This document shows, in pieces, positions 6,826-58,365 of a DNA stretch of 64,000 bases. Source of the DNA: a virus; IMG/VR virus record IMGVR_UViG_3300036790_000468, positions 1-64,000 of that record, one strand, 5' to 3'. The position numbers and the translations under genes were made by a program. The first letter of the stretch is position 1. Every line of letters begins with the position of its first letter. The notes beneath the pieces were generated by a model. That model searched no databases. It had not been told where the DNA came from and worked only from the letters and a program-made list of their open reading frames with translations.

Positions 6826-8253
6826 CTAGTACTTCCACTCCAGGTCATACCGCCCCGGCCGAATCCCCCGGACGCCCTTCCCAGCCGGGTTCATCCACGG
6901 CACCACCAGCGGCCTGATAACCGAACGCTGCCACGTCAGATCCTCCCCGCCCCCAATCCACTTCCCCCGCGCGCCCGGACCCGCGAGCTGTCGCAGCACC
7001 AGCGGCACCGACGCCGACTGCGCCCGCGACCGCGCATCCTCGATCAACGGAAGCAGCTGCTGCTCGAGCGAAGCCAGCGAAGCCGCCGACAGCACGACAC
7101 GCCCGTTCTCCCACCGGCCGGCCAGCGCACGCGCCTCCGCCAACTGCGCCTCGAGGGCCTGCGCCTGCGCCAGGGCCGCGGCCGTCCCGTCATCCGCGTG
7201 CGCGTTCGCGAGAGCCGCCGCGAACTCCGGGCGTTCCACATACTCGAGGAGAGCCAACGTGACGATCTCGTCGAGCACGGGCACCTGAATCGACGTCTTG
7301 AAGCACGCCACACAGATATACGCCCACTTGTCCGGCGCATACGAGCGGCGCGGCCTCGCGATCCCCCTGCACACCGAGCACCGGGCGATCCCCGAGAGCA
7401 GGAACTTCACCGCGTTCCCCTTCGCAGACAGACGCCCCGGATCCGAGAACAGCCGCACACACGCGTAGTACGTCTCCTCATCCAGGATCGGCTCCCACAC
7501 CGCATCCCCAATCACCGTTCCCTGATACTGCCGCTTCCCGATATACGTGGGCTTGCGCAGCAGATCCGGCAGGATCTCCGGCGACCACGGGCGCCCGGTC
7601 GGCCCCGGGATCCCCCGGTCGTTCAGATCCTTCGCGATCCGGTACAGCGACTGGCCGCCCGCCGCACGCCGCGCGATCTCGCGCACCACGGGCGCCTGAG
7701 CGTCGTCCGGGATCTGCTCGAGCAGCGCGCCCGTCCGCTCGTCGTACACGCGCCGGTACCCGTACGGGATGCGCCCGTGCGGCCGCCCACGCTCCGCATT
7801 CAGCCGCACGGTGCGCATGACCCGGTCCCGGATCGCGTCCGCCTCGTCCTCGGCCTGGAGCGCGTTCAGCCCCGTGATGAACCGGTCGGTGCGCCGGGTC
7901 ATGTCGTAGACGGTGCCGTTGTAGCACAGCACCACCCTGTGCTTGACGCACAGGTCCCGCAGCGTCACATACACCTTCAGGTCCCGGTACGCACGGGAGG
8001 CCTCCCACACCACCAGGACGTCGCACCGGCCGAGCCCGATCTCCTCGAGCATCCGCTCGTAGTCGGTGCGCCTGGACTTGCTATGCCTCGAGGCGCCCTT
8101 GCCCGGGTCGGTGAACCGCTCCACGATCGTCCAGCCCTGGCGTTCGCAGAACCGGGCGTTCTCCAGGTTCTGATCCGCGTTGGCCCGTTCGCTGGCGAGT
8201 CCCTTGACGTCGCGTGAGGTGCGGTCGTACACGAAGGCGCGTAGCTGCTCCAT
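6826..8253 (-). CDS. large serine recombinase (integrase)
   Basis: A protein of about 475 residues. The N-terminal resolvase domain has the nucleophile serine at about residue 13 (FVYDRTSRD) and catalytic arginines in RRTDYERML and WEASRAYRDL. A recombinase domain follows (GRIPYGYRRVYDE, IARRAAGGQSLYRIAKDLND, LLRKPTYIGKRQYQG), then a zinc ribbon (CSVC and CVAC) and a coiled-coil region. The set matches phiC31/TG1-type integrases that join attP and attB without host factors. The ATG at 8253 has no clear ribosome-binding site; an in-frame GTG at 8271 is an alternative. It lies beside a large inverted repeat and the immunity region of prophage A. Confidence 0.9.
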   Translation of the reverse strand: MEQLRAFVYDRTSRDVKGLASERANADQNLENARFCERQGWTIVERFTDPGKGASRHSKSRRTDYERMLEEIGLGRCDVLVVWEASRAYRDLKVYVTLRDLCVKHRVVLCYNGTVYDMTRRTDRFITGLNALQAEDEADAIRDRVMRTVRLNAERGRPHGRIPYGYRRVYDERTGALLEQIPDDAQAPVVREIARRAAGGQSLYRIAKDLNDRGIPGPTGRPWSPEILPDLLRKPTYIGKRQYQGTVIGDAVWEPILDEETYYACVRLFSDPGRLSAKGNAVKFLLSGIARCSVCRGIARPRRSYAPDKWAYICVACFKTSIQVPVLDEIVTLALLEYVERPEFAAALANAHADDGTAAALAQAQALEAQLAEARALAGRWENGRVVLSAASLASLEQQLLPLIEDARSRAQSASVPLVLRQLAGPGARGKWIGGGEDLTWQRSVIRPLVVPWMNPAGKGVRGIRPGRYDLEWKY

Positions 8254-29648: not shown

Positions 29649-29957
29649 TCAGTAGCCGGGTGCGGCGTCCATCTGCGCGTCCGGATACGTCGAGTAGCCC
29701 GGGGACGCGTCGAGCACCTCCGGCGACGCGGCCGTCTTGCCGCCGGCCATGGGTGAGATGTTCGACCCGATGCCCTGCGAGCAGTCGTACGGCCCGGCGT
29801 GCCCGGGGACGTTGGAGGGGACGTGCTTGCCTGCGGCCGGCTGGCCGCCGTGGCGCATCGGCGTCGGCTGCTGGCGTACCTGAGACTTGCCCGGCACGGT
29901 GACAGGCTGCTTCGGAGCCGCGGCCGCCTTCGGGGCGCCCTTCTTGGGTGCGGTCAT
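29649..29957 (-). CDS. small Lys/Pro-rich protein after portal
   Basis: A 102-residue, low-complexity protein: MTAPKKGAPKAAAAPKQPVT at the start, PMRHGGQPAAGKHVPSNVPG and PSPGYSTYPDAQ-like Tyr/Pro segments at the end. The start overlaps the portal stop (ATGA). It may bind DNA or bridge portal and scaffold; no family recognised. Confidence 0.55.
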   Translation of the reverse strand: MTAPKKGAPKAAAAPKQPVTVPGKSQVRQQPTPMRHGGQPAAGKHVPSNVPGHAGPYDCSQGIGSNISPMAGGKTAASPEVLDASPGYSTYPDAQMDAAPGY

Positions 29958-31654
29958 ATCGAGAGCTCCCTACTCGGGTCGGACGCGACGGACGTGTCCG
30001 AGGTGATCTGGACGTCTCCTGCGATCTCGTCGATCTCCTGGCCGATCGTGGCCTCGGAGTCCTGCGGGCCCTGGAGCATGACGCGGGCGCGCCCGAGGAT
30101 GTCGAACGCGGCCTCGTCGCGGATCCGGTCGAGCTCCTCGGTGACCTGGTCGTCCGTCCAGTCCGGGTGCAGCAGCTGGATCATGGTCTGCTTGGACGCG
30201 GCCTGCGCGGTGTTCATCGCGACGATGGTGGTCGAGGTCTCGGAGAGGGACGGCAGGATCATCTCCGGCCACATGATCAGCGGCCGGGCCGGGGTGATCG
30301 GCCGCTTGAACACGGACTTCTCGATCCACTGCAGCGAGTAGAGGGCGTCGCGCAGGCCGGGGCGCCAGTACTGCTGCTTGCGCTTCCCGGTCATCAGGGT
30401 GCGCCGGTCGCGGTCCTCGACCTCGGTCGCGGTCATCGCCACGTTCGTCGACTCCCCGAAGATCTGCCCGGAGTACCCGGCGGAGCGCAGGGTGTCGCCG
30501 AGGATCTGCTTCATCGTGCTCTGATGGTCTTCCCAGCGGATCGCGAACTGGTTCGCGGTGATCGCACTGTCCGCGGTGCCCGACAGCATCTTGAGCGGCA
30601 CGAACACCTCCTTCTCGATGTCCGCGAGCGCGCCCTTCCCGGGCCCGAGGTCGTTGAGGTAGTCCGGGGGTACCATCAGGCGCATCTTGCCGAGCCGGAT
30701 ATCGCGCATCCAGCTCGAGAAAGTTTCGTCGAGGGAGTCCATCAGCCCCTCGATCCCGGCGAAATCGGACCGGCCGAGAGCGGCGGCGTGCCCGAGGTGG
30801 CGCCAGTACCGGTTCGGGCGCATGTTCGGGATGTAGGTGACCGTGGATGCGTCCGGGGCGATGTCCGGGAAGCGGATCGCGTTGTCCGAGTCGAGCGTCG
30901 CGAACAGCGGCTGCAGGTCCGGGTAGTCGCGCAGTCCGACGACGGACCCGAGGGTCTGCTGGTCGCCGACGTACACGGAGTGGTAGACGCTGTTGGTGCG
31001 GATGTCGTGGTGCTCGAGGTGGCGGTGGACCTCGTCGCCGTCGTCGACCAGGACGCGCCAGAACGTCACCTCGGTCAGTTTCCCGGCGCGGAACACCGGG
31101 ACGGCGGCGTCGGCGTGCACGAGCTCGATCCACGGCCGGTCCGACAGGGCCTGGTCGTAGACGGTGCGCAGGTACAGGCCGCCGAGGCCGGCGCACAGGT
31201 CCGCTCCCTCGTGGAGGGTCGAGTGCAGGTCGTCGTCGAACCGCTCCTCACACCAGTCCGCGACCGCGGTGTCGCCGTCTTCGGCCTCGAACTTCGGGCG
31301 TTTGGCGAACAGCAGGTCGGCGGACATGGTGGTGATGTCGGTGGCGAGCGGTATGTGGACCTTGGTGCGCTTCTCGCCAGCCGAGGGTGTGGTGCCCCAG
31401 AACGTGCGGTCGACGGAGCCGAGGAGGCCGCCGCGGTAGGAGCCGGGGCGCGGTTGGCGGATGGACTGTTCGCCGGTGGTGCGGAAGAAGTTCCTGCCGA
31501 CCTGGCTGTTGGCACCGAGGTTCTGGTAGGCCCAGGCGAGTTGGTCGGGTTTGCCGGAGTACCAGGCGGACCATAGGCGCTGGTCGTGGGCGACGGGGTC
31601 CCAGTGCCAGGGTGGCCATGGCTGGTCTGCTGCGTCTGGTCCGGGGAGTGCCAC
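29954..31654 (-). CDS. portal protein
   Basis: A 566-residue product. Features shared with SPP1 gp6-type portals of actinophages: a W-rich N-terminus (LWSAWYSGKPDQLAWAYQNL), PLATDITTMSADLLFAKRPK, a clip-region beta strand set, LGRSDFAGIEGLMDSLDETF, and a C-terminal barrel-like segment around MIQLLHPDWTDDQVTEELDR. Twelve copies form the DNA entry ring and motor dock. It lies downstream of the terminase and five small genes. Confidence 0.85.
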   Translation of the reverse strand: MALPGPDAADQPWPPWHWDPVAHDQRLWSAWYSGKPDQLAWAYQNLGANSQVGRNFFRTTGEQSIRQPRPGSYRGGLLGSVDRTFWGTTPSAGEKRTKVHIPLATDITTMSADLLFAKRPKFEAEDGDTAVADWCEERFDDDLHSTLHEGADLCAGLGGLYLRTVYDQALSDRPWIELVHADAAVPVFRAGKLTEVTFWRVLVDDGDEVHRHLEHHDIRTNSVYHSVYVGDQQTLGSVVGLRDYPDLQPLFATLDSDNAIRFPDIAPDASTVTYIPNMRPNRYWRHLGHAAALGRSDFAGIEGLMDSLDETFSSWMRDIRLGKMRLMVPPDYLNDLGPGKGALADIEKEVFVPLKMLSGTADSAITANQFAIRWEDHQSTMKQILGDTLRSAGYSGQIFGESTNVAMTATEVEDRDRRTLMTGKRKQQYWRPGLRDALYSLQWIEKSVFKRPITPARPLIMWPEMILPSLSETSTTIVAMNTAQAASKQTMIQLLHPDWTDDQVTEELDRIRDEAAFDILGRARVMLQGPQDSEATIGQEIDEIAGDVQITSDTSVASDPSRELSI

Positions 31655-31750
31655 GGGGTGCCCTTTCGGCGGGGAAGCGGCGGTGTGGTTGCCGTTTCGG
31701 CGCCGTGCGGGCCCTTTGCGGGTGGTCGCAGGGTGGTGCTGGTCAGCAGG

Positions 31751-32176
31751 TTACTGCTTGGTGGGTCCGTTGACGCCCTGGAACTGCAGGCGCGTGTCGG
31801 TGAGGTACTTAGGCTCGTCGAGGAACCGCGTCTTCGTGGCCGGCCGCCCTGAGTCGTCGAGCGCGGTCGCGAGCTCGGCTTCGGTGACGGTGACCTCGAA
31901 GGCAGCGCTGTCGCGCAGGGCTCCGGTCACGATGGGCGCTGCCTCCACCATCCGAGCGACGAGCGCCTGCTCCAGCGCCTTCCCCCATATCTCGGGCTTG
32001 TAGAACAACCCATGCCGAGGTTCCGCGTCCGGGTCGCGCGGGGGCGGTGGCACGTACTGCGGCCACGTGACGACCGCGTGATGGTCGCCGTCGTGGCCCT
32101 TCGGCAGGTCGCATTCGACGGTGAGCCCTTCGTAGGGGTCGCCTTCGAGGTCGCCGCAGAGCTCGGGCTCAGCCAC
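31751..32176 (-). CDS. hypothetical phage protein
   Basis: A 141-residue product from the GTG at 32176, overlapping the stop of the 53-residue gene by 8 bases. It has a CGDLEGDP...CDLPKGHDGDHH motif (two Cys and three His, possible metal site) and then FYKPEIWGKALEQALVARMV. The last 60 residues contain a TGALRDSAAFEV segment similar to gp10-family TGxLxxS motifs. Function uncertain. Confidence 0.55.
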   Translation of the reverse strand: MAEPELCGDLEGDPYEGLTVECDLPKGHDGDHHAVVTWPQYVPPPPRDPDAEPRHGLFYKPEIWGKALEQALVARMVEAAPIVTGALRDSAAFEVTVTEAELATALDDSGRPATKTRFLDEPKYLTDTRLQFQGVNGPTKQ

Positions 32177-32330
32177 GACGCGGCCTCTTCCCACGGTGGA
32201 TGAGCACCACGAGCATCCCCGTCCACCAGCACAGCGTGAAGCCGCACAAGCCGTGTCCGGGATTCCAGGCGCGGCCGATCGGCAGCCAGCGGCGTTGCGT
32301 CGGCTTGACGCGGATCACCTCGAGGTACAT
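32169..32330 (-). CDS. 53-residue basic protein with short hydrophobic core
   Basis: The ATG at 32330 begins one base after the upstream stop and the ORF ends at 32169, overlapping the next gene. The product starts MYLEVIRVKPTQRRWLPIG and has LCGFTLCWWTGMLVVLIH as a possible membrane or buried helix, ending in a basic tail. It fills an otherwise empty stretch exactly and shares the operon's overlap style. Confidence 0.5.
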   Translation of the reverse strand: MYLEVIRVKPTQRRWLPIGRAWNPGHGLCGFTLCWWTGMLVVLIHRGKRPRRG

Positions 32331-32331
32331 G

Positions 32332-32691
32332 TTAGGCCGCTGCTGTGATGGCGCGCTGCCCGGTGGTCAGTTCCGCGTCCTCGACGATCTCAGCGTCCAC
32401 CACGTCATCGGTGGGGTGTGCCGCGTCCCATGCCGCCAGGTCGTCCCCGAAGCGCTTGATCTCCTCGACGACGCTCATGGGCACGTCGGTACAAACGATG
32501 TGGGTGAACGCGAGCGGTGAGCGCCACGTCGTGAGCGTCATATGGGTGGGGATGGCCGCGAGCTCTACCTCGCCGATCTCGATCTGCTGCTCGCCTGTGC
32601 GTGCGATCAGGATGCCGATGATCTGCTGGAGCGCTTGGATGCGCTCGTAGGGATCGGGTGCGTTGAGGAGGCTGGCCACGTCACCCGCCAC
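32332..32691 (-). CDS. hypothetical phage protein
   Basis: A 119-residue product. A helical N-terminus (PYERIQALQQIIGILIARTG) is followed by a beta-rich middle (THMTLTTWRSPLAFTHIVC) and an acidic tail (DDVVDAEIVEDAELT). The GTG start lies 11 bases inside the upstream gene. No family recognised. Confidence 0.55.
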   Translation of the reverse strand: MAGDVASLLNAPDPYERIQALQQIIGILIARTGEQQIEIGEVELAAIPTHMTLTTWRSPLAFTHIVCTDVPMSVVEEIKRFGDDLAAWDAAHPTDDVVDAEIVEDAELTTGQRAITAAA

Positions 32692-33085
32692 CCATCTGTG
32701 GGGGTGTGTTGCCGTTGCCGAGGATGATGCCGCTCGCCGTGCGCCCCGGGATCACCGGCCCGTTCTGCAGCTGCAGATGGCAGCGTGCGAGGGAGCGGCC
32801 TTCGACCACGAACTCGGCCGGAGTGATGGCCGGAAGCAGCTCGCCGGGGATGCCCTGCTGCTCGGCCTGGATCCGCTGGAGCACGCAGCCGAAGCAGGAG
32901 AGGCCCGCGACACCCGGTTCGGCGGTGACGGCCGCGCCCATGGAGTCGACGAACGCGCGGATCTGGTCGAGCGACGCGGCGAGCGTGACGTAGGGGCGTT
33001 CGCTGGTGGAGGCGGCGGTGACGGCGTTGCGCAGCGCGGTGGAGATCTCGGCGAGCGCGCCGGTGAACTCGGCCGGGGTCGTCAC
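32681..33085 (-). CDS. hypothetical phage protein
   Basis: A 134-residue product from the GTG at 33085 (GTGA overlap). N-terminal helices (EISTALRNAVTAASTSERPY) precede CFGCVLQRIQAEQQG and RSLARCHLQLQNGPVI with a Gly/Pro-rich end. Longer in-frame starts would cross the upstream gene. Function unknown. Confidence 0.55.
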   Translation of the reverse strand: MTTPAEFTGALAEISTALRNAVTAASTSERPYVTLAASLDQIRAFVDSMGAAVTAEPGVAGLSCFGCVLQRIQAEQQGIPGELLPAITPAEFVVEGRSLARCHLQLQNGPVIPGRTASGIILGNGNTPPQMGGG

Positions 33086-33345
33086 GAGCGCTCCACCTCC
33101 CGCGCACTGACCTGGCCGCCCCGTTCGATCGCTTCCACCAGATGGGAGCGGATCATCAGGACGGTGCCCTCGACGTCGTCGAAGATGTAGCAGCCTTCTG
33201 ACTCGCGGAAGGCCGCCGCCTCGACGGTGCGGCACTCGCGACCGAGGGTCTGCGGCTCGGAGAGGGTGCCGTCAGGCATCAGCCACGGCTTCGGGGGCGC
33301 GAGGTCGATGCGGTACCGGTAGACCGGGATGCGCGCAGTGGACAT
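33082..33345 (-). CDS. small hypothetical protein downstream of terminase
   Basis: An 87-residue product from the ATG at 33345: MSTARIPVYRYRIDLAPPKP, then TLGRECRTVEAAAFRESEGC and HLVEAIERGGQVSAREVE. It lies 32 bases after the large terminase stop. No family recognised. Confidence 0.55.
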   Translation of the reverse strand: MSTARIPVYRYRIDLAPPKPWLMPDGTLSEPQTLGRECRTVEAAAFRESEGCYIFDDVEGTVLMIRSHLVEAIERGGQVSAREVERS

Positions 33346-33377
33346 GATTCGAACCTTTGTTCGGGTGGCTGGTGGAT

Positions 33378-34640
33378 TCACGATACCGCCGCGAGCGGAC
33401 GGCGCAGAGTGCCTTCCCACGCGTTCCTGGTCGTGTACAGGCCGTACCTGAGGGCGTCCGCGCCGTGGTCGTTGACCTTCAGCGGCTTGTCCTCGCCGAG
33501 CTTCTGCGCGGCCGCGTCCCACGAGTAGCCGGCCAGCTCCCCGATCAGGTGCGGGCACGCGCGGGAGATCCGCAGCTGGTCGTTGGACAGCAGCGTCGCC
33601 ACCGTGCGGATCCCGTCGAGCACGTCGTTGAGCGCGGCCCACGACGCCATCCCGTCGCGCTGCAGCTGCGCCCGGAACGAGGCCGCGGAGGGGTCGACGA
33701 CGATGTACTCGACTTCTGGGCCCGTGTACTCGGTGCCGGGGATGGGGATCGTCGGCAGCCATGCGCGCAGGGCGGCGGAGTACTCGGCGTCGGTCATCTG
33801 CCGGTGCGCGGTCCTCGAGTCGTGCCGGTACTCGGCGAGGACGTACAGGCGCTTGTCGACGCCGACGCCGAGCAGGACGGCGTGGCAGGGGTTGCTGGTG
33901 CCGTAGTCGACGCCGACGCACAGCCAGCGTTCGATGAACGGCAGATCCTGCGGCTCGAGGGTGTGGACGTCGAGGTCGAACATGTCGTAGATCGCGCCCT
34001 CCGCCAGGACCCACAGGCCGTCTACGAACCGTTTGCGCCACAGGCCCGTGTATTGGCGGCGCAGGTAGGCGACGTAGGAGGGGTCGAGGAAGGGGTTGTC
34101 GTCGAGGGTGAAATGCCAGGATCGGATGTCGGGGTCTGGGCGGTCGAGCCAGTCGCGTTTGAGCCAGTGGTTCGGGCCGTCCGGATTCGTGGTCGCGTAC
34201 AACTTCGCGCCGCGCACGGACATGCGGGCCACGAGCTGCTGGAACGTGCTCTCGGGCAAGATCGTCGCTTCGTCGACGAGCGCGCCGGCCACCGTCATGC
34301 CACGGACTTTCGCCTCGGACTGGATGTCGTTGGCACCGAGGACGTGGACCTGGCGCCCGAGGATGGTGGCGGAGTTGGCGCCGTCGGTGTAGGCGACGGT
34401 CTTGGCCAGCGCCCCGTAGAGCAGAGGGTCTTTCAGGACGTTGATGACGTTGCGGGCGATGGTTTCTTTGGTGCGGCCCATCATGACGAGTTCGCCGGAG
34501 GGCGGGGCGTGGCGGATGTGGTTGAACCAGGAGAAGTTCGCGCCCACGGATTTGCCGGAGCGGACGGCGCCTTCCCAGATGTTGATCCGCGCGCTGGCCT
34601 CGTCGATCGAGAGGGTCTGCTTGTCGGACAGGCCGCTCAC
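33378..34640 (-). CDS. terminase large subunit
   Basis: A 420-residue product. The ATPase domain has Walker A GAVRSGKS (residues 24-31), a Walker B-type GALVDEAT and coupling motif LYATTNPDGP. The nuclease domain has VGVDYGTSNP, an acidic VDPSAASF segment and the closing NDHGADALRYGLY. This is a PBSX/pac-type terminase that cuts concatemers and pumps DNA into the prohead. GTGA overlap with the small subunit. Confidence 0.9.
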   Translation of the reverse strand: MSGLSDKQTLSIDEASARINIWEGAVRSGKSVGANFSWFNHIRHAPPSGELVMMGRTKETIARNVINVLKDPLLYGALAKTVAYTDGANSATILGRQVHVLGANDIQSEAKVRGMTVAGALVDEATILPESTFQQLVARMSVRGAKLYATTNPDGPNHWLKRDWLDRPDPDIRSWHFTLDDNPFLDPSYVAYLRRQYTGLWRKRFVDGLWVLAEGAIYDMFDLDVHTLEPQDLPFIERWLCVGVDYGTSNPCHAVLLGVGVDKRLYVLAEYRHDSRTAHRQMTDAEYSAALRAWLPTIPIPGTEYTGPEVEYIVVDPSAASFRAQLQRDGMASWAALNDVLDGIRTVATLLSNDQLRISRACPHLIGELAGYSWDAAAQKLGEDKPLKVNDHGADALRYGLYTTRNAWEGTLRRPLAAVS

Positions 34641-38377: not shown

Positions 38378-38841
38378 CGGGCAGCCGCCGTTCGCGGGAC
38401 CTGGCGGCGCCGAAGAGTGATCAGGCCGACGTTGAAGCCGATGCGTACCGCGTGGGCCCGCGAGCGCGCGCCGAGTGTTTCGCAGGCCAGGCGCAGGTGT
38501 GTCTTGACCGTCCAGGTGCTCAGGCATAGCCGCTCAGCGACCTGCGCGTTCGTCAGGCCGAGGGGGAGCAGTACCACGACCTGGCGCTGCCGGGGCGGCA
38601 GAGGCGTGCCGAGATCCTGGTGCTCGGCGACGAGCTGGCCGGTCTTGTACGCGTAGCCGACCAGTCCCGCGCGCGTGGCGACGCCGGCCTCGGCGAAGAG
38701 GGTCTTGAGCCGGGCCTTGACGCAGTACTCGGTCATGCCCAGGCGCACCCCGATCTGGTGGCTCGTGAGGCCGTCAGCGATCAAGTCGGTGATCTCAAGG
38801 TCAATGGCTGCGAGGCGCGGACCCGCACTGGTCTGGATCAT
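38374..38841 (-). CDS. tandem LuxR-type HTH regulator
   Basis: A 155-residue product made of two GerE/LuxR-like helix-turn-helix units. Unit 1 (about 15-66): ITDLIADGLTSHQIGVRLG, CVKARLKTLFAEAGVATRAG. Unit 2 (about 81-142): LPPRQRQVVVLLPLGLTNAQ, LSTWTVKTHLRLACETLGAR. No receiver or ligand domain is present. Unit 2 is closer to consensus. It overlaps the WhiB gene by ATGA, so the two regulators are made together. Confidence 0.75.
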   Translation of the reverse strand: MIQTSAGPRLAAIDLEITDLIADGLTSHQIGVRLGMTEYCVKARLKTLFAEAGVATRAGLVGYAYKTGQLVAEHQDLGTPLPPRQRQVVVLLPLGLTNAQVAERLCLSTWTVKTHLRLACETLGARSRAHAVRIGFNVGLITLRRRQVPRTAAAR

Positions 38842-39194
38842 CTGGTCGCGTCCTTCGCGGCAGCACTGTCCTTGATCAGCCTTCTGCGCTGGCGCCAGGT
38901 CAAGCCGCCGAAGATCCCCCACGGGAGCTGCGCGGCCACGGCCTCGCGCAGGCACTCCAGACGTACCGGGCAGCTCTCGCAGATCGCCTTCGCCAGTTCG
39001 GCGTCCGGGTTGAACCTCCGGCGCTGGCTCTTCGCCGGCAGGCTCGCCGCGCGCCGGCCGTCGAACCACATCTCCGGGTCGCGGCCGCGGCAGGCGGCGC
39101 GGGTGACCCAGTGCGCGCTCTCGGAGGGGCGCCGCTCGTTGTCGGCTCGCAGCGCGTTCTTGCCGGGCCGCGCGGGCATGACCGCGGCGGTCAC
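38838..39194 (-). CDS. WhiB-family Fe-S transcription factor
   Basis: A 118-residue product from the GTG at 39194 (GTGA overlap). The four cluster cysteines are at about residues 35 (RAACRGRDP), 72, 75 (ICESC) and 81 (LEC). The turn PWGIFGGLTWRQRR follows, close to the family's GVWGG motif. WhiB proteins bind sigma-A and reprogram transcription; phage copies can shut down host division genes (as WhmA-type proteins of mycobacteriophages do). Confidence 0.85.
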   Translation of the reverse strand: MTAAVMPARPGKNALRADNERRPSESAHWVTRAACRGRDPEMWFDGRRAASLPAKSQRRRFNPDAELAKAICESCPVRLECLREAVAAQLPWGIFGGLTWRQRRRLIKDSAAAKDATR

Positions 39195-39604
39195 TGTTCG
39201 GCTCCAATCCGCTCGCCGCGCATGATCCGGGTGATGCGAGGGATATCCGCGGGGCGCCAGAGCGCGGCCTCGGCGCCGCAGGCCGCGAGGGCGGTGAGCC
39301 ATTCGACCTGGGCGGGCGAGACGGCGCCGGTCTCGGTCTTGAGCTCGGCGTAGATGATGCGGCGCTGGAGCGGGTTGACCAGGACAAGGTCGGGGAATCC
39401 GCGCTCGGAGTTGCGCGAGTCGTGGGTGTGGTAGGTGAACCAGCCAGTGAGCTGGGCGATCTGGCGGACCTGCTCGAGGAACTGGGCCTCGGTCAGGTGC
39501 CCGGCCAGGCGCGCGCGGACCGTGGCCGGGCTGCGTCGGCCGCGCGGCGCCGGCTCCTGCGGGGGCGCCGGCGCCTCGGCGGCCGGCGGGGTGTCTGCCT
39601 GCAT
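39191..39604 (-). CDS. VRR-NUC domain nuclease
   Basis: A 137-residue product. After a Pro-rich start comes the PD-(D/E)XK fold: FLEQVRQIAQLTGWFTYHTH, ERGFPDLVLVNP, IIYAELKTETG and SPAQVEWLTALAACGAEA, ending LWRPADIPRI. Asp in GFPDLV, and Glu and Lys in AELK, form the catalytic set. Likely a Holliday-junction or structure-specific nuclease in replication/packaging. Confidence 0.85.
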   Translation of the reverse strand: MQADTPPAAEAPAPPQEPAPRGRRSPATVRARLAGHLTEAQFLEQVRQIAQLTGWFTYHTHDSRNSERGFPDLVLVNPLQRRIIYAELKTETGAVSPAQVEWLTALAACGAEAALWRPADIPRITRIMRGERIGAEQ

Positions 39605-40552: not shown

Positions 40553-41095
40553 CTATGCCGCGGCGGCGGCCGCGACCGGTGCGGCCTCTGGGTCCTGCGG
40601 TGCCGGCAGTAGGCGCAGGCCCTCGGCGAGCGGGAACGAGGGGTAGACCGTGCCGTCGGGCATCGTGATCCGCCACGGCGCCGGGATCGGCTCGTAGGCG
40701 GTCCACTCGCAGCCGCGCACGGCGGGAGCCGGGGCCGGGCCGGTCGCGTCGTCGTTCTGCTCGGTGCCGGTCTCGGGCGTCTCGTCGGGCGCCCCCGGCT
40801 CGTCGTTGGGCTTGACCGCGGCGAGGTACCGGCCGAGGCACTCCTGGCCGACCCGGGAGCGCTTGTCGCGGGGGAACTCGGCCGCGGTGGCCACGTCGCC
40901 GCAGTTCGGGCAGGCGAACGCCCACTGCATCGGGTCGTCGCCGAACCTGCACCAAGCCTCGACGGCGAGCTCGGCCTGGGTCATCTCCCGGACCGCGACC
41001 GGCCGGCGGCGCGTGCCGGATCCCGTGGCCGGGACGGCGGCCGCGGTTTTGGCCGGCTGCTGGCTGCGTTGGCGGATCCTTGCCTTCGAGCTCAT
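40553..41095 (-). CDS. hypothetical protein with CxxC motif
   Basis: A 180-residue product. A basic N-terminus, then EAWCRFGDDPMQWAFACPNC with GDVATAAEF, a Pro/Glu-rich linker and a C-terminal segment PWRITMPDGTVYPSFPLAEG. The FACPxCGDVATxxEF pattern occurs in several actinophage early proteins. Function unknown. Confidence 0.6.
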   Translation of the reverse strand: MSSKARIRQRSQQPAKTAAAVPATGSGTRRRPVAVREMTQAELAVEAWCRFGDDPMQWAFACPNCGDVATAAEFPRDKRSRVGQECLGRYLAAVKPNDEPGAPDETPETGTEQNDDATGPAPAPAVRGCEWTAYEPIPAPWRITMPDGTVYPSFPLAEGLRLLPAPQDPEAAPVAAAAAA

Positions 41096-41096
41096 G

Positions 41097-42155
41097 TCAA
41101 ACCTCGGATTCGGTCGGGGAGGGGTGGTGCTCGTTGTCGGCGTCGAAGAGCTCGGCGGCGAGGATGTACTGGGCGGTGACGGTCGCGTGGTAGCCCTGGT
41201 CGACCAGGCGCTGGCAGGCGTCGGCGAGCAGGGCGCGGGCGCGTTCGGGGTCGATGGCGGCGAGGTGTTTGAGGGCGCGGCGGTAGGCGCCCTTGTCGTC
41301 GTAGCCGGCAGGAACCGGGTTCCGCGGGGCGTCGCCCTCGGCCCCGGCGCGCACCTCGGCGAACGGGGCGTGGGGGGAGGGGGCCGGGCGCGCAGCGCGC
41401 CAGGCGTCGGCGAGGGCGGGCAGGTCGCCTCGCTCGGCGACGGTGCGCCACCACTGGCCGCTGCCGGGCCGGCGCGTCTTCATGATCCATTCGACGAGGT
41501 CTCTCTCCTCGTCGGGGGCGACCACGCGCGCACTACGGATGAGCTGGATAGGAAGAGAGAGATTTTGAGATTGAGGGGATTGAGGAGAGGGGGTCCCGTA
41601 AACCGGGACCCTGAAACCGGTAAACCGGGACCCTGAAACCGGTAAACCGGGACCCTGAACCTCGGGTCCGGATCGTTCAGGGTCCTGTAAACCGGGACCC
41701 TGAATCCCGTTCAGGGTCCTAGCTTCCGGGACCCTGAACGCGTGTTCAGGGTCCTTGCTTTCGGGACCCTGAACCTCGGGTCCGGACCCTTCAGGGTCCT
41801 GTAAACCGGGACCCTGAGGAGCCGGGTTCAGGGTCCCGGTTTCCGGGACCCTGAGGGCCACGGGCGCCATCGGCATGATCACGTAGTGCGCCTGCTGGCC
41901 CTTCTGCCCGCGCACCGTCACCTTGATCGCGCCCTTGGCGACGAGCGACTTGATCGTCTCGTAGAACTGCGAGCGCGAGCAGCGCACCCGCGCGCGAAAG
42001 CGCACCGAGCGCTCGGAATCGCCCTCGTACCCGTGCCAGCCCTCGCGCGTGCCGTCGTTGGCGTTCTCCGCCAGCAGCGCCAGCACGTACCGCTCACGCC
42101 ACGTCAGCGACGCCGGGGCGTAGTCCGCCACCTCGTTGAAGAGCTTGATGCCCAC
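41097..42155 (-). CDS. replication initiator with winged helix
   Basis: From the GTG at 42155 the product is 352 residues, starting VGIKLFNEVADYAPASLTWR, the usual start of actinophage initiators; a GTG at 42239 overlapping the upstream stop would add 28 residues. The N-terminal winged helix includes ERYVLALLAENAND and RCSRSQFYETIKSLVAKGAI. The middle (about 105-205) is a Pro/Gly/Gln repeat encoded by the iteron array. The C-terminal helical domain includes EWIMKTRRPGSGQWWRTVAE. The lambda O-like layout suggests it binds the origin inside its own gene and loads host replication proteins. Confidence 0.75.
   Translation of the reverse strand: MGIKLFNEVADYAPASLTWRERYVLALLAENANDGTREGWHGYEGDSERSVRFRARVRCSRSQFYETIKSLVAKGAIKVTVRGQKGQQAHYVIMPMAPVALRVPETGTLNPAPQGPGLQDPEGSGPEVQGPESKDPEHAFRVPEARTLNGIQGPGLQDPERSGPEVQGPGLPVSGSRFTGFRVPVYGTPSPQSPQSQNLSLPIQLIRSARVVAPDEERDLVEWIMKTRRPGSGQWWRTVAERGDLPALADAWRAARPAPSPHAPFAEVRAGAEGDAPRNPVPAGYDDKGAYRRALKHLAAIDPERARALLADACQRLVDQGYHATVTAQYILAAELFDADNEHHPSPTESEV
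41541..41855. other. candidate replication origin: iterons plus A/T-richer tract
   Basis: GGGACCCTGA occurs eight times in direct orientation, at 41605, 41627, 41649, 41694, 41728, 41763, 41808 and 41845. TCAGGGTCC occurs five times inverted, at 41677, 41711, 41746, 41791 and 41828. Spacings cluster near multiples of 11 bp. Directly beside the array, 41541-41590 is unusually A/G/T-rich for this region (GAGAGATTTTGAGATTGAGG). This is the arrangement of a lambda-type origin inside its initiator gene. Confidence 0.7.
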
Positions 42156-42235
42156 AGCGCTACCGCTTCCCAGGCCGCCAGCGGCGCGCATCGCGCACGT
42201 GCAGCTCCTCATGGCTCGAGTCATCGGAAACCCCC

Positions 42236-42496
42236 TCACTCACGCCGCGACGGGCCCGGGCGGCCCACGGCGGCCCCGACCGCCGCTCGCGAGCGGCGTG
42301 CAGGAAGAGCGGGCCGGGCGGCCAGAGCCGCGCGCAGGCGGTCGTTCTCGGCCACCAGCGCCTCCCACCGCTCGCGCAGCTCGTCCGCCACGGGGGTGGG
42401 CAGTTCCGGGTCCAGGCCGGGATGTCGGGCCGGGGCCTGCGCGGGCGCGACCACGCCCGGTTCGCTGCGCCGGCCGCGGAACGTCAACCACCTCAT
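42236..42496 (-). CDS. small coiled-coil protein
   Basis: An 86-residue product starting MRWLTFRGRRSEPG, with a helical core LPTPVADELRERWEALVAEN then DRLRAALAARPALPA and a basic tail. Its stop overlaps a possible GTG start of the initiator. A slightly shorter ORF in another frame over the same bases is Gly/Arg/Ala-rich and unlikely. Function unknown. Confidence 0.5.
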   Translation of the reverse strand: MRWLTFRGRRSEPGVVAPAQAPARHPGLDPELPTPVADELRERWEALVAENDRLRAALAARPALPARRSRAAVGAAVGRPGPSRRE

Positions 42497-42500
42497 TCAG

Positions 42501-42992
42501 TCAGTCCTTTCCGTCCTCGTCGGTGAACTCGCCGTCGCGGGGGTCGAGCCCCAGCGCGTCGAGCAGGTCCCACAGGTCCTGCGCGTCGCGGGCGACCTGC
42601 CGGTTCAACTTGCGGATCAGCTTCTGGCGCGTGACAAGCTCCGTGCGCGGGAGGTGGAACCGGGCGCAGTTCACGCCCTCGACCGGCGGATCGCGCTCTT
42701 CCTTCGGCGCCGGCTTCGGCTTGGCCTTCCGCTTCGGCTTCGCAGTGCTCTTCTTCGCCGCCTTGCGCGGCTTGGCGGTGCGCGCTTCCATCACCGCCCG
42801 CGCCTCGGCCGGATCGCCCAGTTCGAGCAGCAGCTCCCGGTAGCGCCGGTCGCGGCCGCGTTCGGAGTGGTAGGCGTTGTTCGCCTTGTTGCACGCCTCG
42901 CACGGGTCCTCGCCGTCGTCCAGGTGCCGCTGGTAGCGCGAGCGTGTGCCGTGGCGGGCCTGGGAAGGGCGCGCGGTCCTGCTGGCGGGCAT
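42501..42992 (-). CDS. hypothetical protein with HGTRSRYxRH zinc-like motif
   Basis: The ATG at 42992 follows AAGGGAG. The product has 163 residues. The N-terminus HGTRSRYQRHLDDGEDPCEA with CNKANNAYHSERGRDRRYRE is a motif widespread in small actinomycete phage proteins (GxxxRYxxH...GExPCxxC). A Lys/Pro-rich linker and an acidic C-terminal helix with RQVARDAQDLWDLLDALGLD follow. Nucleic-acid binding likely; function unknown. Confidence 0.65.
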   Translation of the reverse strand: MPASRTARPSQARHGTRSRYQRHLDDGEDPCEACNKANNAYHSERGRDRRYRELLLELGDPAEARAVMEARTAKPRKAAKKSTAKPKRKAKPKPAPKEERDPPVEGVNCARFHLPRTELVTRQKLIRKLNRQVARDAQDLWDLLDALGLDPRDGEFTDEDGKD

Positions 42993-55973: not shown

Positions 55974-56867
55974 ATGGCCACACCATCCAGCACCACCCCG
56001 CAGCGCGTCCTCGCCGTGGCGCGCATCGGCGGCGGCCTGTCCCTGGTCGCCGCCGCCATGATCAGCTTCGAGGGCCTCAACGGCCTCGGCGCCCTGATCG
56101 GCATCCACCCCTCGTGGCTGCTCCCGCTCGCGATCGACATCTACGCCGTCACCTGCGCCGTGGTCGCGCTGAACCTCCCCGCGGGGCACGCCGTGCGCGG
56201 GAGCGCCGTGGGCAACGCGGCACTCGGCCTGCTGATGTCGATGGGCGGCAACTCCACCTACCGCGGCATGACCCACGGCTGGTCCGGTCACAACATCATC
56301 CTGATGGTCGCGGACGCGTGCCCCAGCCTGATCGTCGAGAGACTGATCCACCTCGTCGGCGTCCTCGCGCGCGGCGCCGCGACCACCGAGACACGCGACG
56401 AGGCCGAGGCAGCCGCGCCCGCGCCAGTCCAGGCGCGCCGCGCCCAGCACACGCCTGTCGCTACCGCGCCGCGCCACGCCGCCAACGCCCAGCCGCTACC
56501 GGGCCCGGCGCCGCAACCGACCGCTACCGCTACCACCGCGCCCCCGACTGCTACCGAGCCCGCGCCCACCGCGCCGCCGCCCACCCCCACTACCGCGCCC
56601 GCGACCACCACCGCGCCCACCGCGCCCGGCCGAACGACCTTGAGCACCCCGACCGCGCGCCAGCAGAAGATCCGCAACCTGATCCTCGAGCGCGGCCGCG
56701 AGAACGTCGACGGCGCCATGGTCGGCGAAGCCCTCGGCGTGCACCGCTCCAACGGCCGCCTCGCCCTCAAGAAGTTCCTCGAAGACCTCGACGCGGGCCT
56801 CGTCTCGCTCAACGCGTCGTCGTCGTTGTCGTCGTCACCCGCAGTCGTCCCCGCGGCAACGCCGTGA
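55974..56867 (+). CDS. Spd-like DUF2637 membrane protein with C-terminal HTH
   Basis: The ATG at 55974 follows AAGGAGGA. The product has 297 residues. Four membrane segments lie at about 16-34, 46-68, 76-93 and 107-131, matching the DUF2637 layout of Streptomyces plasmid-spread (SpdB-like) proteins. A long Pro/Thr/Ala linker (about 140-225) leads to a small DNA-binding-like domain (RQQKIRNLILERGRENVDGA, LGVHRSNGRLALKKFLEDL). In conjugative elements Spd proteins help plasmids move along the mycelium. First gene of the transfer module. Confidence 0.7.
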   Translation: MATPSSTTPQRVLAVARIGGGLSLVAAAMISFEGLNGLGALIGIHPSWLLPLAIDIYAVTCAVVALNLPAGHAVRGSAVGNAALGLLMSMGGNSTYRGMTHGWSGHNIILMVADACPSLIVERLIHLVGVLARGAATTETRDEAEAAAPAPVQARRAQHTPVATAPRHAANAQPLPGPAPQPTATATTAPPTATEPAPTAPPPTPTTAPATTTAPTAPGRTTLSTPTARQQKIRNLILERGRENVDGAMVGEALGVHRSNGRLALKKFLEDLDAGLVSLNASSSLSSSPAVVPAATP

Positions 56868-56937
56868 CCGGCCAGAACCCAGGCGACGACACCCGGCGAC
56901 GACAACGACGACGCACGACGACAAGGACGACGACGAC

Positions 56938-58365
56938 ATGAGCAGCGACACCACCGGAGCCGCGGCCCCCGAACCGAAACCGGGCCGGGGCCCCCGGCAC
57001 CGCACCACCCGGCACGTTCTGGTGCACGGCACCGGAGCCACCGGGGTCTCTGCGCTGGCCGCCGCCGGCCACGCCTTCGGCCCGGCCGGGATAGCCGCAG
57101 CCGCCGGAGGCGGCGTGCTCATAGCCTGCGGCGGATACGCGCTGCGCCGGACCTCGAAGTCCCGCGGCCGCAGCCAGCGTCCGGCCCCGCGCCACCGCGT
57201 GCGCCGCCCGCAGACCGCGACCGGCGCACGCACCTCGGCGGGACTGCGTCGCGACCCGGGCGCGACCCCGCGACGCCCCGGCACCTCCGCGACCGGGGCG
57301 TCGCGGGGTCGCGCCGTACCGGCCGCGACCGGGTCACGTCGCGTCGCGGGACTGCGTCGCGCACAAGCCCCGTCGCGCACCGACGCGACGAAGGGCGGCC
57401 GGCGGGTTGCGACCACCGTTCGGCGACCGCGACCGATCTCGACCGCGCCCCGCGCCGCCGGTTCCTCGCGACGCGGCAAGAGCGCGACCGCCACGCGACC
57501 CGGTCGCGCCGGCGGAACCGGGCCCGTCTCGACGCGCCGGGCCCGGGAGGCCGCGACGCGCACCCGCGTCCGCCGCGTCGCAAAGCGCCCCGCGCCGCGC
57601 ATTCCCGCGCCTCCAACCGGAGCGCCGCGCGCTACCGCGGGCCGCCGCCCGACGCGACCCCTGGCCAGCACGCCACGCGGGCGCCGCGCTGCCCGGCGGC
57701 TGCGCCGGCGCGCCGCCCGCGCCTGGCGCTTCACCTCGGCTGGCGCCAAGGCCTCGCGCCCATACCTGCGACTTCGCCCGCCCGCCCAACACGGCAAGCC
57801 GCGGCTGAAAGCGGCCGCACGCCGCCAGCCGGCGCCGGGCGCCAAGAAGCCCCCGGCGAACAAAGATACGAACACCCCGCGCGCGAACAAGGCCCCGGCC
57901 AGCGCCACCGGCAGCCAGAAGGCAGCCAGAGTCCCTGCGCCGCGCCGCCCTGCAGCCAAGCCCGGGCGCCCCATCACACCCCCCGGCCGAGAGAAGGCAA
58001 CCGTGTCCGAAGCTGATATTTCGCCCGGCGGCATCACCGCCATCATCGACTCGATCCACCAGCACCTCGACGGCTTCGAACCCGACTCCGCGCTGGCGAT
58101 CCTCGGATTCCTCTCCGGGTTCGAGTCGCTCTACACCGAGCTCGGCGGCGCGCTGCTGCGCCTCGGCGACCGCCTGGGCAGCGACTACCCGATCGACCGC
58201 TCCGTCGTCGAGCACCTCCACGACATGGGCGCACACACCCTCACCCTCGGCGCGTGGGGCGCCCAGACACACCACCTGGCCCGCGCTGCCCACGAGACCG
58301 AAATCCAGCGCATCGAGCAGCCCCGCCCGCGCGAAGGCATGTGGGACGTGGACCGCTACAACTAG
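56938..58365 (+). CDS. Arg-rich single-pass membrane protein of transfer module
   Basis: A 475-residue product. One or two hydrophobic helices lie at about residues 30-65 (VLVHGTGATGVSALAAAGHA; GIAAAAGGGVLIACGGYAL). Residues about 68-350 are a low-complexity, strongly basic Arg/Ala/Pro linker that should bind DNA or RNA. The C-terminal 120 residues form a compact acidic helical domain (IIDSIHQHLDGFEPDSALAI, IDRSVVEHLHDMGAHTLTLG). Placement between the Spd-like and TraB-like genes suggests a DNA-transfer accessory. The linker DNA contains clustered GCGACC motifs. Confidence 0.6.
   Translation: MSSDTTGAAAPEPKPGRGPRHRTTRHVLVHGTGATGVSALAAAGHAFGPAGIAAAAGGGVLIACGGYALRRTSKSRGRSQRPAPRHRVRRPQTATGARTSAGLRRDPGATPRRPGTSATGASRGRAVPAATGSRRVAGLRRAQAPSRTDATKGGRRVATTVRRPRPISTAPRAAGSSRRGKSATATRPGRAGGTGPVSTRRAREAATRTRVRRVAKRPAPRIPAPPTGAPRATAGRRPTRPLASTPRGRRAARRLRRRAARAWRFTSAGAKASRPYLRLRPPAQHGKPRLKAAARRQPAPGAKKPPANKDTNTPRANKAPASATGSQKAARVPAPRRPAAKPGRPITPPGREKATVSEADISPGGITAIIDSIHQHLDGFEPDSALAILGFLSGFESLYTELGGALLRLGDRLGSDYPIDRSVVEHLHDMGAHTLTLGAWGAQTHHLARAAHETEIQRIEQPRPREGMWDVDRYN
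57240..57530. repeat. cluster of CGCGACC/GGTCGCG motifs
   Basis: Within about 290 bases CGCGACC occurs repeatedly (for example near 57247, 57259, 57290, 57332 and 57480) with inverted copies GGTCGCG near 57310 and 57507. The density is well above the surrounding coding DNA. TraB-type translocases recognise 8-bp repeats called clt/TRS, so this is a candidate transfer locus. It also encodes an Arg-rich linker, and codon bias alone could produce it. Confidence 0.4.

Follow-up and report, generated by a model that had tools for sequence, protein, structure and literature searches.

The window, by which we mean the whole 64,000-nucleotide stretch analysed here (bases 1-64000 of the 127,504-base IMG/VR record IMGVR_UViG_3300036790_000468), carries within a phage initiator gene a dense array of repeats that, taken together with its surroundings, is best explained as a theta-type phage replication origin embedded in the initiator gene, a reading to which we give a probability of roughly 0.87. 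In the model we propose, winged-helix dimers would bind five to six 27-bp palindromes as well as direct half-sites, wrapping the DNA; melting would follow in an AT-richer, purine-biased tract that borders the array on its 3' side; and the replicative helicase or primase of the host would be brought in by a helical C-terminal domain, with the iteron DNA itself translated as a disordered linker between the two domains. It is origin activity, together with binding, melting and helicase recruitment, that we infer for the array, which by analogy would work like lambda O/ori and the rep gene of Staphylococcus pSK41. Coordinates of the features are collected in Table 1.

Table 1. Features of the putative embedded origin, in window positions.
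Feature	Positions	Strand	Remarks
Replication initiator gene	41097-42155	-	Start GTG 42155 by alignment with relatives; phrog_270 match
Codons of N-terminal winged-helix DNA-binding domain, aa 1-95	41871-42155	-	AlphaFold H-H-H-H-E-E
Iteron array	41588-41854	.	Half-sites GGACCCTGA, 13 of them exact; a degenerate palindromic partner at 41588
Palindromic iteron TCAGGGTCC-N9-GGACCCTGA	41677-41703	.	Exact
Palindromic iteron	41711-41737	.	Exact
Palindromic iteron	41746-41772	.	Exact
Palindromic iteron	41791-41817	.	Exact
Palindromic iteron	41828-41854	.	Exact
Three direct half-sites, 22-bp period, nearest the AT-richer tract	41598-41659	+	Tandem repeat match
Purine-biased, AT-richer tract, candidate DNA-unwinding element	41545-41593	+	GC 0.49; 3' of array in gene sense
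Codons of helical C-terminal domain, about aa 194-352	41100-41576	-	AlphaFold helices; candidate helicase/primase recruiter

When both strands were counted, 13 copies of GGACCCTGA were found in positions 41606-41854, against 0.60 expected from dinucleotide shuffles (shuffle maximum 4), and there was no copy elsewhere in the record outside the array. Eight of these read GGACCCTGA and five TCAGGGTCC, so that the counts and places given in a preliminary description of this DNA, eight direct and five inverted copies within the initiator, were correct; the string GGGACCCTGA occurs eight times (41605-41845), and TCAGGGTCC starts at 41677, 41711, 41746, 41791, and 41828. Ten of the 13 half-sites pair up at an offset of exactly 18 to form five perfect 27-bp palindromes, and a sixth, degenerate palindrome (3 mismatches) starts at 41588, for a total of 6 against 0.04 expected. 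The degenerate palindrome provides a partner for the half-site at 41606, the outermost of three direct copies, and only the half-sites at 41628 and 41650 are without one. The spacing near multiples of 11 bp that had been claimed for the array holds for these three direct copies (41606, 41628, and 41650; tandem period 22, 2.8 copies, 100% match), giving steps of 22 and 22, but not for the palindromes, which follow each other at start-to-start steps of 34, 35, 45, and 37. Two 56-nt stretches of the array share 96% identity, and the array therefore grew partly by duplication.

Duplicated segments of this sort, along with the predicted disorder of the linker, would also suit an explanation at the level of the peptide, namely that the repeats are a low-complexity Pro/Gly/Gln linker under selection and spread by slippage. 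However, the half-sites are translated in all three phases and in both orientations, giving differing peptides (e.g., RVPE, QGPG, SGSR, and QDPE); the repeats do shape the linker, as had been proposed, but they do not dictate one peptide. Furthermore, when synonymous codons were shuffled with the protein kept, no 9-mer exceeded 8 copies in 1000 trials, compared with the 13 observed. Since three phases are used with different peptides and the shuffle maximum is 8, the conserved entity in the array is the DNA and not the peptide. A peptide-level origin of the repeats is also at odds with the retention of the DNA core AGGGTCC in relatives whose proteins are only 44-56% identical (see below), and we regard it as very unlikely.

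The purine- and A/T-richer tract that had been noted beside the repeats is real: its GC content of 0.49 compares with ~0.71 for the window, and 80% of its + strand is purine. The purine bias is the strongest in the record at lengths of 45-60, but not at 40 or less, and the lowest-GC 40-mer of the initiator gene begins 15 bp past the array.

The open frame of the initiator extends upstream to GTG 42239; we set the start at GTG 42155 because the alignment with relatives begins there. AlphaFold placed a winged helix at residues 3-95 (10-residue mean pLDDT 60-94), a disordered linker at 100-197, coinciding with the residues that the repeats encode, and at 194-341 a C-terminal domain made up of helices. 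Foldseek searches with the full-length model were non-specific, and the winged helix alone was more informative; its nearest PDB chains (4pql, 4pt7, and 5kbj; E 0.007-0.02, TM 0.52-0.56) are titled as initiator or Rep-DNA structures, a modelled likeness to plasmid RepA initiator domains that is suggestive only. In a fold search of viral models the replication protein O of Escherichia phage Min27 ranked fifth (E 2.8e-5). At the sequence level the protein gave a weak match to phrog_270, 'replication initiation protein' (E 2e-7, residues 43-153), an unspecific profile that also finds generic HTH proteins and, at E<=1e-5, has hits in E. coli and in 107 of the 396 actinobacterial genomes searched. 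Neither Pfam Phage_rep_O (lambda O homology) nor RepA_N matched up to E=1, and sequence queries with the C-terminal domain yielded no relative. Judged from its sequence, the protein belongs to the phrog_270-like phage initiators and not to the lambda O or RepA_N families.

Whole-protein queries against phages, plasmids, viral contigs, genome contigs, and 396 actinobacterial genomes returned no relative, and the exact palindrome was absent from the viral contigs scanned for it; relatives emerged only from a query restricted to the winged helix. The neighbouring gene (40553-41095), tried as another route to relatives, was set aside, as its match in L011 had no initiator at that place. The winged-helix query identified eight close viral relatives with 44-56% identity (L081, L082, L083, L084, L086, L087, L088, and L090), which with the window's gene we call the first type, and a remoter one (L091) with a different linker repeat, GATGTGACA. 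The linkers of the eight close relatives contain 3-8 exact AGGGTCC sites each, with more at one mismatch, in arrays that include inverted partners and 22-bp steps, and in several of them a gene-strand pyrimidine tract CCCCTCAGACCCCTCAG directly follows the array, as it does in the window. Relatives whose linkers lack repeats, which by the preliminary description would speak against an origin here, were looked for and did not turn up. One of the relatives, L084, matched phrog_270 over most of its length (E 8e-26), much more firmly than the window protein itself, and it also matched a primosomal protein family.

A second initiator is encoded in the same record (at about 123917-124891, comprising L008 and the end of L007), with linker repeats GACCGGACA/GACCGGTC. 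Together with 26 other sequences it makes up a second type (n=27), in which the linker repeats have other sequences (ACGGGGTGCA, CGGGGTGTCA, ACGGGGTGAA, CGGGGGGACA, and GACCGGACA) and of which the annotated members adjoin either RecE/RecT and RusA genes or a helicase loader and helicase. The winged helices of the two types had no relation by BLAST, while a profile comparison gave E 2e-5 with a probability of 77%. Some second-type members individually fail the synonymous-shuffle null, the case for them being a shared position and a 22-bp step, which is the commonest repeat step in both types. Over both types, in 37 initiators that are mutually related and do not amount to 37 independent tests, the 80 bp past the array had a GC content below that of the remaining gene in every case (37/37), and the lowest-GC 40-mer of the gene started between -20 and +60 of the array end in 28/37, as against 3.7 expected at random placement. 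The gene right after the L081 initiator (6870-7052) is 41% homologous to the gene after the record's second initiator (123450-123920), a homology suggesting that initiators of both types take the same position in the genome. Other HTH proteins with repeated linkers past the HTH occur in L060, L064, L066, and L072, which are genomes of Actinomycetota (e.g., the linker repeat SPCTNFWYTG in L060), a hint that still other families of initiators have embedded arrays.

A dimeric regulator would suit palindromes as well, and winged helices of the MarR/CRP type are near to this one in fold and in sequence profile, which raises the alternative that the palindromes are operators at which the winged-helix protein, as a repressor, regulates its own gene from inside, the origin lying elsewhere. 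We consider this improbable, as some 300-550 bp separate the array from the start of the gene, a scan covering certain promoter types gave no promoter-like match in 41000-42700, the relatives fall in replication-initiator families, and thirteen sites together with an adjoining AT-richer tract of the kind present in 37/37 initiators would be unusual for operators.

Returning to the embedded origin, natural domain exchanges bear on how the array relates to the protein. The C-terminal domains of L084 and of Arthrobacter phage Chickaboom are 43% identical (E 3e-17) and their winged helices unrelated; conversely, L083 and L086 have winged helices that are 87% identical, and their C-terminal domains had no relation in direct comparison. 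The AGGGTCC core was present in 9/9 close first-type genes (the window's included) and 0/27 second-type genes, and GGGGTG was present in most second-type linkers and absent from those of the first type, a link between core and winged helix to which physical linkage contributes and which is essentially one contrast between two clades, although the core persists at a protein identity of 44-56%. In these comparisons C-terminal domains cross between types, while the linker repeats, which could have moved with the domain on either side, stay with their winged helix. The lambda O/ori logic that had been suggested for this gene gains support both from the AT-richer 3' DNA of all 37 initiators and from the way the AGGGTCC core follows the winged helix.

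Repeat arrays are typical of partition sites, and the window has an FtsK/SpoIIIE-like gene at 58254, so we also weighed whether the array could be a centromere-like or packaging site (parS/pac) that lies in the gene by chance. The record, however, encodes integrases, the proteins scanned, which were not an exhaustive set, included no ParA/ParB, the terminase gene is ~7 kb off, and the core segregates together with the winged helix that the initiator gene itself encodes. We see very little likelihood in such a site, and rejected a centromere, an operator array, and a peptide-level repeat each as the main explanation.

As for the wider context of the putative origin, the record carries at least two phage-like elements, one with portal and terminase genes at 29954-34640 and another with a terminase at 85437. 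The two terminases differ (phrog_2 and phrog_38; 29954-34640 of the window and 85437-86981 of the record) and there are two integrases (6826 and 50129), a combination suggesting that the record spans two adjacent prophages or elements. The phage host was probably a high-GC bacterium. WhiB-type regulator genes flank the initiator (38838-39302 and 42501-42992), and in L084 such genes (191-1450) lie upstream of its initiator; a scan of genes neighbouring the window's initiator turned up neither a helicase nor a loader. The + strand GC skew falls steeply at 42 kb, at the initiator gene, from about +0.12 to -0.05, even though the predicted genes on both sides of the drop at 42000 are on the - strand. 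This change does not have the sign expected for leading strands leaving the array, a point that tells, if anything, against the embedded origin. Two other repetitive regions were observed: a 12-bp tandem repeat CACCTGGCCGTG at 8-401 (~33 copies, 89% match), within an open frame at the record's very end, and a region at 56000-58250 with GC 0.77, strong AT skew, and CGACG-like repeats, preceded by a Pro/Thr/Ala-rich frame.

Among known systems, lambdoid phages have their origin in the middle of O; it comprises an AT-rich tract and iterons that are imperfect 19-bp inverted repeats, four of them in lambda and six in Stx phages, where the two additional ones lengthen O by 13 residues (PMC7466680). 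The window has the same arrangement of a putative mid-gene origin, inverted-repeat iterons, and an adjoining AT-rich tract: the 13 half-sites lie in linker codons within the coding sequence of the initiator itself, the palindromes (five exact, one degenerate) correspond to iterons, with two half-sites standing alone, and GC drops to 0.49 at the 3' edge. The earlier statement that the window has far more iterons of mixed orientation than lambda is not supported, as the iterons of lambda are inverted repeats too, and the 5-6 palindromes and two lone half-sites here come close in number to the six iterons of Stx phages (PMC7466680). Unlike those of lambda and Stx phages, the window iteron is 27 bp long, GC-rich, and of another sequence, and there are direct half-sites at 22 bp as well; the Phage_rep_O match is lacking, a P-like loader was not found among the scanned neighbours, and the modelled winged helix appears to resemble a phage O protein at the level of fold only.

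In pSK41 the N-terminal domain of Rep binds four Rep boxes in the central part of its own gene, the linker that this ori region encodes is deletable, and the C-terminal domain interacts with DnaG; the hybrid Rep of pPR9 has a phage-like pfam13730 N-terminal domain and a different origin region, which differ as a unit (PMC5703833). The window protein shares with pSK41 Rep (RepA_N) a layout with a predicted N-terminal winged helix, repeats central in the gene, and a linker between domains, but it has no RepA_N sequence match, its fold match reaches E 0.007-0.02 only, and it is from a phage, probably of a high-GC host, with GC-rich iterons. Similar in anatomy are the phrog_270 phages we compared (Arthrobacter phages Galaxy, Andrew, and Kepler, Pseudomonas phage U2, and Gordonia phage DatBoi), which have a winged helix, a linker array with 22-bp steps, and an AT-richer 3' edge, array and edge here being a rule derived in this analysis and not a published definition. 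Their C-terminal domains are shared with relatives of the window protein, but their cores are GGGGTG or others and not AGGGTCC, they have fewer inverted partners, and their winged helices are unrelated to the window's by BLAST. For Pseudomonas phage MD8, repeats have already been described inside a gene that encodes an O-like protein (PMC8508860), and in this respect it resembles the window. Mycobacteriophage RepA origins have been suspected in or near repA, where no repeats were seen (PMC7157519).

These results predict exactly where the origin and the binding site lie in a phage lineage of which we found no studied member, and they offer a sequence rule (linker repeats after a winged helix, 22-bp steps, and an AT-richer 3' edge) for locating origins in many actinophages and Pseudomonas-type phages whose initiators are annotated merely as 'HTH protein'. 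More tentatively, and at somewhat less than even odds in our estimate, the placement of the origin in the linker may be what lets phages exchange initiator halves safely: winged helix and iterons would form one cassette, and the C-terminal domain, which would face the host replisome, would be swapped just 3' of the AT-richer tract. Such an arrangement may be general for phage initiators of the HTH_36/phrog_270 kind, the window being one case with a C-terminal domain of its own. Through the natural domain swaps, each iteron core is linked to one winged helix in advance of any experiment, which makes recognition directly testable and could yield new replicons for high-GC bacteria.
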